A stretch of 6,359 nucleotides of DNA, from positions 1 through 6,359 of the forward strand of contig JALTZH010000023.1 in NCBI GenBank assembly GCA_027051265.1. The letters run 5' to 3'. The position numbers were made by a program, and so were the translations under genes. This stretch comes from an archaeon (GTDB taxonomy: Archaea; Hydrothermarchaeota; Hydrothermarchaeia; JALTZZ01; JALUTC01). Every line of letters begins with the position of its first letter. Position 1 is the stretch's first letter. Below, piece after piece: positions 3,196-6,253 of the stretch. A model generated the notes under the pieces. That model searched no databases. It saw only the letters and a list, made by a program, of their open reading frames with translations, and was not told where the DNA came from.

Positions 3196-4125
3196 TTAAA
3201 TAGTTTTTCTTTTAACTTTCTTCACATATAAATTGGCTTCCATTGCAGCTACGGCAGCGTCGCCACATGCTACGATTACTTGAAATCCTCTACACGTACA
3301 ATCACCTGCTGCAAATATTCCTTGAACATTTGTCCTCTGTTTAGAATCGACAACAATGCATCCTTTTTCATCTACTCTTATTCCTGATTTTTTAAAAACA
3401 TCAACTATTGGTACAGATCCAAGAGCTATAAAGACGCCATTCACTTGAATAACCCTTGTTTCATTTCCAACTCTTATTTTTATACCTTTAACAACATTCT
3501 CTCCAAGAATTTCTTCAAGATAAGAATTCTCTATTATTTCAACATTCTCTAGTTTAATAAGCTTTTCCATATCGGAACTCGGCATCTCTATACTTCCGTT
3601 TGGTATAATATATACTTTACTTGCTATATTAGATAAGAACAAAGCTTCTTTAGCAGCTTCTTGTTTGTTTCCAATCACAGCAACGTTCTTATTCTTAAAA
3701 AAGAAACCATCACATGTTGCACAATACGAAACTCCTCTTCCTAAGAATTTATCCTCTCCTTTTATTTTAGCTTTCTTTTTTTCTGCTCCAGTTGTAATTA
3801 TTATAGCATATGTCTCATATTCTTTGCCACTTCTAGTTATTACTTTTTTAATATCGTTACCTATTTTTAAATCAACAACCTCATCTGGATATGTTATATC
3901 GACATTAAACTTTTTTAAATGCTCCAACATTCTATTTGATAACTCTTGTCCGGAAATCTCTGGAAAGCCTGGATAATTATCTATTTCAGATATCAGGTTT
4001 AATTTTCCTCCTGGCATTCCTTTCTCTATAATCAATGTCTTCAATCCATATCTTGCACAAAAAATTCCCGCAGTAATTCCAGCCGGACCACAACCGATAA
4101 TTATAACATCGTATCTTTCATCCAT
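3196..4125 (-). CDS. trxB: Thioredoxin reductase-family flavoprotein lacking NADPH motifs
   Basis: A 309-residue cytosolic FAD disulfide oxidoreductase expected to reduce thioredoxin. Seen: the FAD dinucleotide site IIIGCGPAG (8-16), ENYPGF-like IDNYPGF (48-54), TTGAEKK (111-117), the redox centre CATC (135-138) and the second FAD site FAAGDCTC (271-278). The NADPH domain is unusual. Where E. coli has GGGxxAxEE followed by HRRxxxR, this protein has VIGNKQEAAKEA (150-161) and IIPNGSIEM (173-181), so both the glycine-rich loop and the 2'-phosphate-binding arginines are gone. The surrounding ALFLSNIASKVYII is ordinary. Known archaeal relatives without these motifs include the Thermoplasma acidophilum enzyme, reported not to use NADPH, and the F420H2-dependent methanogen DFTR; the donor here is inferred to be non-NADPH. 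Start ATG 4125 has no Shine-Dalgarno but sits about 34 bp from a TATA palindrome, consistent with a nearly leaderless mRNA. Divergent from thioredoxin. Extra cysteines C276/C278 follow the GD motif. Confidence 0.93.
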   Translation of the reverse strand: MDERYDVIIIGCGPAGITAGIFCARYGLKTLIIEKGMPGGKLNLISEIDNYPGFPEISGQELSNRMLEHLKKFNVDITYPDEVVDLKIGNDIKKVITRSGKEYETYAIIITTGAEKKKAKIKGEDKFLGRGVSYCATCDGFFFKNKNVAVIGNKQEAAKEALFLSNIASKVYIIPNGSIEMPSSDMEKLIKLENVEIIENSYLEEILGENVVKGIKIRVGNETRVIQVNGVFIALGSVPIVDVFKKSGIRVDEKGCIVVDSKQRTNVQGIFAAGDCTCRGFQVIVACGDAAVAAMEANLYVKKVKRKTI

Positions 4126-4193: not shown

Positions 4194-4316
4194 ATGAAAT
4201 ATCCAAAATTTATCGGTAAATTTCATGTGAGAAATTGTAGTTTTAAGAATATATTGAAAATGTTAACTAATCGTAATATCAAGGGAGCATTCGGATATAA
4301 ATATGGAGGTGATGAA
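4194..4316 (+). other. In-frame open extension / leader of the thioredoxin gene
   Basis: This is 41 stop-free codons from ATG 4194 joined in frame to the thioredoxin. The encoded stretch is basic, with KYPKFIGKFHVRN and ILKMLTNRNIKG. It has no recognisable domain, no hydrophobic signal peptide and no Shine-Dalgarno. It begins 34 bp from the TATA palindrome, so it could be translated from a leaderless mRNA to give a 176-residue form. Alternatively it is a roughly 125-nt untranslated leader. Confidence 0.4.
4305..4313 (+). promoter_or_regulatory. Strong Shine-Dalgarno setting the internal trx start
   Basis: GGAGGTGAT is a full anti-SD match, 3 nt before GTG 4317. The same arrangement (purine-rich GGTGAT, then a gap of 3-4 nt) precedes tusA and the SQR-like gene here. 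It therefore favours GTG 4317 over ATG 4194 as the main thioredoxin start. Confidence 0.75.
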
Positions 4317-4724
4317 GTGGAAGACATAGAGAACATAAAGAAAAAAAAGTTTGAGGAACTTATGAAAAGAATTAAGGAAAGAGAATTAAAAGCAAAATAT
4401 CCTTCAAAACCAATATATTCAGATGCCGATAACTTCTACGATATAATAAATAGATACGAATTTGTCATAGTTGACTTCTATGCTGATTGGTGTTATCCAT
4501 GTCATATGTTATCTCCAATAATAGAGGATTTGGCAAAGGAATATGCAGGTAAGGTAGTTTTTGTTAAGGTTAATGTTGATGAAAATCAACCATTAGCTCT
4601 CAAATATAACATCATGGGCGTACCAACACTAGTATTCCTAAAAAACGGAAGAGAAATTGATAGAGTAGTAGGTTATGCACCAAAAGATTATTTAAAAATG
4701 AAAATTGAACGATATATCTATTAA
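4317..4724 (+). CDS. trxA: Thioredoxin with WCYPC active site
   Basis: A small thiol-disulfide oxidoreductase of 135 residues from GTG 4317. Residues 1-27 are a charged, probably helical Lys/Glu-rich tail (EDIENIKKKKFEELMKRIKE), typical of several archaeal thioredoxins. The thioredoxin fold follows: VIVDFYADWCYPCHMLSP (50-67) with active cysteines C59 and C62, KVNVDEN (84-90), and the cis-proline loop GVPT (101-104), ending in LVFLKNGREIDRVVGY. The dipeptide between the cysteines is Tyr-Pro, not the usual Gly-Pro, which should shift redox potential or partner choice. The frame is open back to ATG 4194, which would add 41 residues without family resemblance. That ATG fits a near-leaderless start, but the strong SD favours 4317. 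Probable partner of the divergent reductase. Cytosolic, with no signal peptide. Confidence 0.93.
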   Translation: MEDIENIKKKKFEELMKRIKERELKAKYPSKPIYSDADNFYDIINRYEFVIVDFYADWCYPCHMLSPIIEDLAKEYAGKVVFVKVNVDENQPLALKYNIMGVPTLVFLKNGREIDRVVGYAPKDYLKMKIERYIY

Positions 4725-4841: not shown

Positions 4842-4847
4842 GGTGAT
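4840..4847 (+). promoter_or_regulatory. Shine-Dalgarno of tusA
   Basis: GAGGTGAT lies 4 nt before ATG 4852, deciding that start over the in-frame GTG 4843, which lies inside the site itself. The TGA of the small upstream ORF overlaps it. Confidence 0.7.
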
Positions 4848-4851
4848 TTTA

Positions 4852-5091
4852 ATGGCAGAGGTTAAACCGGATAAAACCATAGATGCAAGAGGCACATTCT
4901 GTCCCGGACCTTTAATGGAGCTCATTAAGGCTATAAAAGAAGAACCTGTAGGTGCAGTTATAGAAGTTCTCACCAGTGATAAAGGTTCTGTTAAAGATAT
5001 ACCAGCGTGGGTCAAAAAGTCTGGGCATGAACTTATAGGTGTTTTTGAAAAAGAGGGATACTGGAGTATTGTTGTGAAGAAAACCAAATAA
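4852..5091 (+). CDS. tusA: TusA/SirA-family sulfur carrier protein
   Basis: A 79-residue sulfur-relay protein that carries a persulfide on a single cysteine. The family signature [19 protein letters not shown] spans 9-27, with the carrier cysteine C17 in CPGP. It is followed by the two-layer alpha/beta fold: [20 protein letters not shown] (34-53), KSGHELIG (56-63) and the closing strand GYWSIVVKK (69-77). Length is normal for the family and C17 is the only cysteine, as expected. In bacteria TusA serves tRNA thiolation; in archaea and sulfur oxidisers homologues next to SQR, DsrE or Hdr-like genes move sulfane sulfur in dissimilatory metabolism. The SQR-like gene 25 bp downstream favours the second role here, by inference. 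Preceded by a possible leader ORF and followed by two T6 tracts. Confidence 0.95.
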
Positions 5092-5104
5092 TTTTTTATT
5101 TTTT
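5092..5104 (+). terminator. Double T6 tract between tusA and the SQR-like gene
   Basis: TTTTTTATTTTTT starts immediately after the tusA TAA and touches the next ribosome site. Oligo-T stretches on the coding strand act as archaeal terminators without a hairpin. As the next gene has no room for its own promoter here, this may be a partial terminator that raises tusA relative to downstream genes, or simply an AT-rich spacer. Confidence 0.35.
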
Positions 5105-5113
5105 GGAGATGAT
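5105..5113 (+). promoter_or_regulatory. Shine-Dalgarno of the SQR-like gene
   Basis: GGAGATGAT, one mismatch from GGAGGTGAT, lies 3 nt before GTG 5117. It fixes this non-ATG start, with the FAD site beginning at codon 4. Confidence 0.7.
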
Positions 5114-5116
5114 TGC

Positions 5117-6253
5117 GTGAAGAGAGTAGTTATAGTAGGCGCGGGAGTAGGTGGTTGCATCACAGCTAATTTACTAGCTAAAAAGGCAGAGAATCTTGAG
5201 GAAGATATTGAAATAACTGTAATAAACGATAAAGATTACATATTTTATGAACCCGGTCTTTTATATCTAATATTTAATAAGATGCATGAAAAAGAACTTA
5301 AAAGACCATTAAACAGCATACTAAACCCAAAAATAAAACTTATTGTTGATGAAGCAACTAAGATTGATACAGAGAACAATACCGTTATAACAAAAAACGG
5401 TAAAATCGTAGAATATGACTATCTCGTTATAGCTACTGGAGCTAAAATCGTACCAGAAGAACTTCCTGGACTCAAAGAGGGAGGTGACTGGTTCTATACG
5501 CTTGAGGGAGCTAAGAGGCTTAGAGAAAAGCTTGCAAAAATAAAAAAAGGACGAATTGTTATAGGTGTTGCTGGAATTCCTCACAAATGTCCTGTAGCTC
5601 CAGTAGAATTTACTTTAATGCTTCACGATTATTTAAAAATTAGAGGAGTTAGAGACGATGTCGAAATATTTTATACATATCCAATACAACGTCTTCACAG
5701 CTTAGAAAAGGTTGCTGAACTTGCAAAGAAGCTCTATGATGAAAAAGGAATTAAATATGAAACTTTCTTCAATATAGCAGAAGTAGATGCGGAGAAAAAA
5801 AAGATAGTAACACTCGAAGGTAGCGAGATAAAATACGACATATTCATTGCAATACCACCTCACAAAGGTGTAGATTTAATATTCAACTCTGGCATAGGAG
5901 ATAGCGGCGGATGGGTTAAAACGCACAGATACACGTTAAAGGTTGAAGGATTCGATAACATATACGCACTTGGTGATGCAACCAATCTACCAGTAAGTAA
6001 GGCAGGTTCTGTTGCACACTTTGAAGCAGAGGTTGTTGTAGAAAACATAATTGGTGATATAGAGGGCTTTGGTATAGTTAAAAATTATAACGGTGAGACC
6101 TTTTGTTTTATAGAAACAGGATTTAACGAAGCAACATACATAAAATTTGACTTCAATAACCCACCAGTACCTGTAAAGCCATCAAAGCTTATACATTATA
6201 CAAAGATAGCTTATAACAAACTCTTCTGGCTTACAGTAAGAGGTGTAATGTAA
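5117..6253 (+). CDS. Sulfide:quinone oxidoreductase-like FAD flavoprotein
   Basis: A 378-residue member of the SQR/flavocytochrome c-sulfide dehydrogenase branch, which oxidises sulfide or a related sulfur species with FAD. Seen: the N-terminal FAD site VVIVGAGVGGCITAN (4-18), YDYLVIATGAK (100-110), HKCPVAPVEFTLML (156-169) with C158, IYALGDATNLPVSKAGSVAHFEA (282-304), and TFCFIETG (328-335) with C330. C158 and C330 match by position the two sulfur-bridging cysteines of the Acidianus ambivalens enzyme (C178, C350). The third cysteine near 129 of that enzyme has no counterpart; the only other cysteine, C14, lies in the FAD loop. The C-terminus, KLIHYTKIAYNKLFWLTVRGVM, has one amphipathic helix and ends early, so membrane attachment may be weak or via a partner. 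It starts 25 bp after tusA and overlaps the next ATG (TAATG). Quinone, sulfur carrier or another acceptor is undecided. Confidence 0.87.
   Translation: MKRVVIVGAGVGGCITANLLAKKAENLEEDIEITVINDKDYIFYEPGLLYLIFNKMHEKELKRPLNSILNPKIKLIVDEATKIDTENNTVITKNGKIVEYDYLVIATGAKIVPEELPGLKEGGDWFYTLEGAKRLREKLAKIKKGRIVIGVAGIPHKCPVAPVEFTLMLHDYLKIRGVRDDVEIFYTYPIQRLHSLEKVAELAKKLYDEKGIKYETFFNIAEVDAEKKKIVTLEGSEIKYDIFIAIPPHKGVDLIFNSGIGDSGGWVKTHRYTLKVEGFDNIYALGDATNLPVSKAGSVAHFEAEVVVENIIGDIEGFGIVKNYNGETFCFIETGFNEATYIKFDFNNPPVPVKPSKLIHYTKIAYNKLFWLTVRGVM

Follow-up and report, generated by a model that had tools for sequence, protein, structure and literature searches.

Several flavoenzymes with the fold of the low-Mr thioredoxin reductases are already known to work independently of NADPH, as described for TRi, DFTR, FFTR and TaTrxR. 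In TRi from Desulfovibrio vulgaris (DvTRi, structure 5nii), the reduction of the FAD by NADPH and by NADH is reported to have been excluded, no donor had been named with certainty, and the organism reportedly has no F420 genes (PMC5627308). DFTR, the F420H2-dependent enzyme of Methanocaldococcus jannaschii, is described from Methanococcales only (PMC8498797). TaTrxR from Thermoplasma acidophilum (3cty) has been reported as NADH-dependent since 2017, according to PMC6262447; the first-pass annotation of the DNA analysed here had presented it as a case of unknown donor, a view superseded by that re-examination. Finally, the FFTR group shows that ferredoxin-dependent flavin enzymes of this same fold exist (PMC12796991).

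The stretch of DNA analysed here (6,359 nt, hereafter the window) encodes a thioredoxin reductase-like flavoprotein (Table 1), which is matched by Pyr_redox_2 and scores 326.1 bits against TIGR01292 (thioredoxin-disulfide reductase), below the cut-off of 343.45. The features of the low-Mr thioredoxin reductase fold are all found in it: the FAD motifs, a CxxC in the second domain and, following the definition of PMC5627308, the G[RK]G and Phe residues for thioredoxin docking, kept as GRG and FFF (GRGVSYCATCDGFFF). The first-pass statement that the FAD motifs and CATC are intact is thus borne out by the motif positions. With TRi, the protein shares the NTR-like fold, the CxxC, a degenerate pyrophosphate loop and AAGDCT; with DFTR, the loss of HRRxxxR, the retained CxxC and an archaeal, F420-containing cell; with TaTrxR, the same loss and the archaeal origin; and with FFTR, the CxxC of a flavin thioredoxin reductase and, probably, the independence from NADPH.

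Table 1. Features of the reductase gene and of its divergent neighbour, in window positions.
Feature	Residues	Position (nt)	Strand	Remarks
Thioredoxin reductase-like flavoprotein, 309 aa		3196..4125	minus	ORF; Pyr_redox_2 (PF07992), 150.7 bits; TIGR01292
FAD motif GCGPAG, intact	11-16	4078..4095	minus	
Redox-active CATC inside GRGVSYCATCDGFFF	135-138	3712..3723	minus	
Degenerate pyrophosphate loop GNKQEAAKE, replacing GGGxxAxEE	152-160	3646..3672	minus	
PNGSIEM, replacing the 2'-phosphate motif HRRxxxR	175-181	3583..3603	minus	
AAGDCT	272-277	3295..3312	minus	Cys276 directly after the flavin GD motif
Thioredoxin, WCYPC active site		4194..4724	plus	Divergent from trxR

An AlphaFold2 model of the reductase, built with 40 homologues, reached a pLDDT of 92.8, and its least certain parts include the loop where the 2'-phosphate would formerly have been bound. 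Along its full length, this model superposes on NADPH enzymes, with a Z of 40 to the Bacillus cereus thioredoxin reductase, and ordinary NADPH enzymes were the closest structures. The TRi structure 5nii was absent among the best 50 matches listed, for which domain orientation may be the cause. As a guide to the electron donor, this search with a predicted model is uninformative.

Neither of the two motifs that characterize NADPH-dependent NTR proteins, for the pyrophosphate and for the 2'-phosphate, is present in the window protein. From HRRxxxR, none of the four fixed residues is retained, so that the earlier description of the NADPH site as erased stands for this motif. For the pyrophosphate loop, it went too far, since three of the six fixed positions of GGGxxAxE(E) remain (G152, A157 and E160) and the two closest relatives keep GxGxxA. 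The middle Gly of the loop is replaced by Lys154, and the acidic residue directly after the second strand is absent. Both altered motifs fall within positions 3560-3690, where the change had been placed, with CATC (nt 3723-3712) just outside, and the flanking segments align normally. Given the open frame, these flanks and the related replacements found in the same columns of two relatives, neither chance nor a sequencing slip accounts for the change.

We consider that this is probably a functional low-Mr thioredoxin reductase with FAD, in which the use of NADPH has been lost. We infer from its motifs and gene context the binding of FAD, thioredoxin as partner, the loss of NADPH use and the identity of the donor. 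In the proposed mechanism, the FAD would receive electrons from a donor other than NADPH, which is likely given the loss of the 2'-phosphate site next to an intact flavin and disulfide core; the electrons would then pass to the CATC disulfide through the usual domain rotation and, from there, to the WCYPC thioredoxin of the divergent gene. Some NAD(P)H binding may persist, as half of the pyrophosphate loop is retained. NADH, or weakly NADPH, might accordingly be used via the altered pocket, the loss being limited to the 2'-phosphate site. This reading, which we regard as rather unlikely, would be in line with the three residues kept in the loop, with the GxGxxA of the relatives, and with the Thermoplasma enzyme, which has no HRR and is reported as NADH-dependent (PMC6262447). 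However, that enzyme keeps GGGNSG and a Glu after the second strand (IIEYMP), whereas the window protein has Lys154 as middle residue and no acidic residue there, and therefore does not carry the GGGxxG-plus-acidic mark of an NADH enzyme of the TaTrxR type. Moreover, NADH did not reduce DvTRi (PMC5627308).

The apparent loss of the NADPH site is not unique to the window protein. The top relatives are a Baldrarchaeota protein (L039, 50% identity) and a protein from a genome of the same class (L010 in G008, 48%), with TNAKSLE and PNGELEM, respectively, at the 2'-phosphate position and GxGxxA complete in both. Many genomes of the class carry a TNG-type protein (GSxDYAAKEALELL..TNGxxL), and the f3 and f9 relatives have TNGK or TNGE at the HRRD position, where the window has PNGS. 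Residue 176 is Asn (Gln in DvTRi) in all 12 rows of the TRi-joined branch of the tree set and Arg in 36 of the 48 rows outside, residue 177 is Gly, Ala or Thr in the branch, and the Cys after the flavin GD (Cys276) occurs in 12/12 branch rows vs 4/48 outside. The Asn is not invariant, as a homologue in G132 (47.6% identity) has SHEEEL at the site and retains GDCT. In another archaeal family, L214 and L215 are of the TNG type and have GDCT. No CxxC-bearing copy with HRRxxxR was found among those fetched from 23 genomes, the HRR-bearing copies being without CxxC, which makes an "NADPH thioredoxin reductase" annotation given irrespective of these motifs doubtful across the archaeal class. A further eroded type, with CVTC or CVLC, a shortened pseudo-NADPH loop and AAGDCT, was observed in L167 and L172 (G014 and G016).

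The best characterized relative by profile, which the first-pass annotation overlooked, is the Desulfovibrio TRi. A profile (A1) built from eleven archaeal branch members and compared with the whole PDB found 5nii as its first match (1.4e-86), and DvTRi is 49% identical to the archaeal L134 and 32% identical to the window protein. The docking residues are GKG and FF in DvTRi and GRG and FFF in the window protein; after the second strand, both have Asn/Gln-Gly, but the T[QN]GK mark of TRi, TQGK in DvTRi, reads PNGS in the window. A short synthetic TRi motif query gave no specific match. In the tree from all columns, a single branch (support 96/91) unites the TRi-type rows with the window protein, L010, L039 and L050. 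When the columns of the NADPH site and of GDC were left out, the TRi rows held at 100/100 and the support for joining them with the trio of window protein, L010 and L039 was lost; the trio itself stood at 96/96 with all columns and at 98/96 with the site columns removed. Constraining the trio, TRi and L050 together fitted no worse than the free tree (lnL 0.54 higher, p-AU 0.52), and the p-AU values for the join to TRi with these columns removed were 0.40-0.52. Since the join between trio and TRi depends on the site columns, we do not claim membership in TRi. The window protein falls in an archaeal branch beside the TRi of anaerobic bacteria, which do not depend on NAD(P)H, and the two are perhaps joined; a common descent of the NADPH-site loss in both is plausible. 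In the literature searched, an archaeal branch beside TRi appears undescribed, and a cell with F420 in which an enzyme of this kind is the one thioredoxin reductase found looks new as well.

Row L021, Methanocaldococcus-like and presumably of the F420-type (DFTR), has GRDTPA and TDKKELR, unlike the window motifs. It was placed apart from the window trio in the trees, and forcing the join costs 11.4 lnL (p-AU 0.23), a cost at which it is not rejected. The earlier comparison with DFTR finds circumstantial agreement in the F420 genes of the genome, whereas the proteins do not group together in these trees.

The host genome (1.46 Mb, 95% complete) has a single full-length thioredoxin reductase copy, the only one found, whereas the host of DvTRi has a second, NADPH-linked reductase. 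Apart from the divergent thioredoxin, the genome has no strong match to PF00085. A better start for this thioredoxin may be GTG 4317, behind GGAGGTGAT, and its active site (window 4480-4510) reads WCYPC, not WCGPC. An iron-sulfur FTR was also considered as the true thioredoxin reductase and was rejected, as the beta subunit (PF02943) has no match in the genome. The reductase could alternatively be a decaying or moonlighting homologue, with thioredoxin reduced by another system, given that the site columns vary among relatives and that a genome of the same genus (G001, 81% complete) has no copy. We find this highly improbable, as CATC and the residues for FAD and for docking are all conserved, the thioredoxin gene is the divergent neighbour, and no other thioredoxin reductase or FTR was found in the genome. 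The first-pass proposal of sulfur intermediates from the neighbouring operon as electron source was rejected: trxR points away from trx, tusA and sqr, and the neighbourhood is not repeated at the locus of any relative.

Regarding the donor of the probable NADPH-independent reductase, the genome content favours F420H2 circumstantially, which makes it our leading, albeit tentative, candidate, followed by a small redox protein (ferredoxin or flavodoxin) and then by NADH. CofD and CofE are present in the host genome, together with an F420-linked CO dehydrogenase cluster and three FrhB proteins, one of them adjoining a CO dehydrogenase-family subunit and another an 808-aa HdrA-like ORF. F420 would be reduced in the cell by the F420-linked CO dehydrogenase and Hdr-type complexes. 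The window itself contains no F420 genes, and no F420H2:NADP reductase was found above cut-off in the host genome. CofE occurs in 7 of 7 carrier genomes examined (G000, G008, G031, G053, G132, and those of L039 and L050); the further carriers G009 and G013 have a CofD match and none for CofE, and G020 and G021 (62% complete) gave no match to either. In G002, a genome of the same order, the TRi-type gene has downstream of it, all in one orientation, a TrmB-like regulator and then an F420H2:NADP reductase. Because F420 genes are found in almost the whole class, their presence hardly discriminates, and indicates availability more than use. A small TrmB-like regulator also follows TRi-type trxR genes on the same strand in several families (L207 6573-8593; L174, L176, L208 and L211), and a Cys in its M[RGK]C[MI]FG stretch might sense the redox state.

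The generality of F420 genes in the class, and a Desulfovibrio TRi at work in a reportedly F420-free cell, leave room for NADH or for a protein donor. In the latter case, a ferredoxin, a flavodoxin or an FrhB-type subunit would pass electrons straight to the flavin, in the manner of FFTR or of the proposal made for TRi, which is possible but doubtful. The chains 6gna, 6gnc and 6gnd, taken here as Clostridium FFTR, are shorter than the window protein, at 288-294 aa, and match it more weakly than NADPH enzymes do (9.4e-45 vs 2.2e-63). FFTR also differ from it by their C-terminal Trp tail in cyanobacteria (PMC12796991). A protein donor is nonetheless in agreement with DvTRi, the nearest characterized relative by profile, which is reported not to use NAD(P)H, in a host described as free of F420, and for which flavodoxin has been suggested, even though its authors argued against ferredoxin (PMC5627308). 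To return to F420H2, it is improbable that the window protein represents a second F420H2-dependent thioredoxin reductase lineage, outside the Methanococcales, the sole one of its cell and with an archaeal branch ancestral to the bacterial TRi. An F420-rich cell in which no way of reducing thioredoxin other than a TRi-related enzyme was found would offer a clean test of the donor, be it F420H2, a protein or NADH.

Other genes complete the window. Positions 4843-6253 encode TusA and then a type III sulfide:quinone reductase-like flavoprotein (NF049943, 357.7 bits, below the cut-off of 525), and positions 1896-2840 an ATP-grasp protein, whose match to MfnD (tyramine--L-glutamate ligase, methanofuran synthesis) reaches 134 bits, far short of the cut-off (400). 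An 8-oxoguanine glycosylase-like gene (1229-1899) appears to be interrupted by a frameshift close to a run of A (about 1497-1506), with the downstream frame carrying on with HhH-like sequence; a homopolymer assembly error is the simplest reading.
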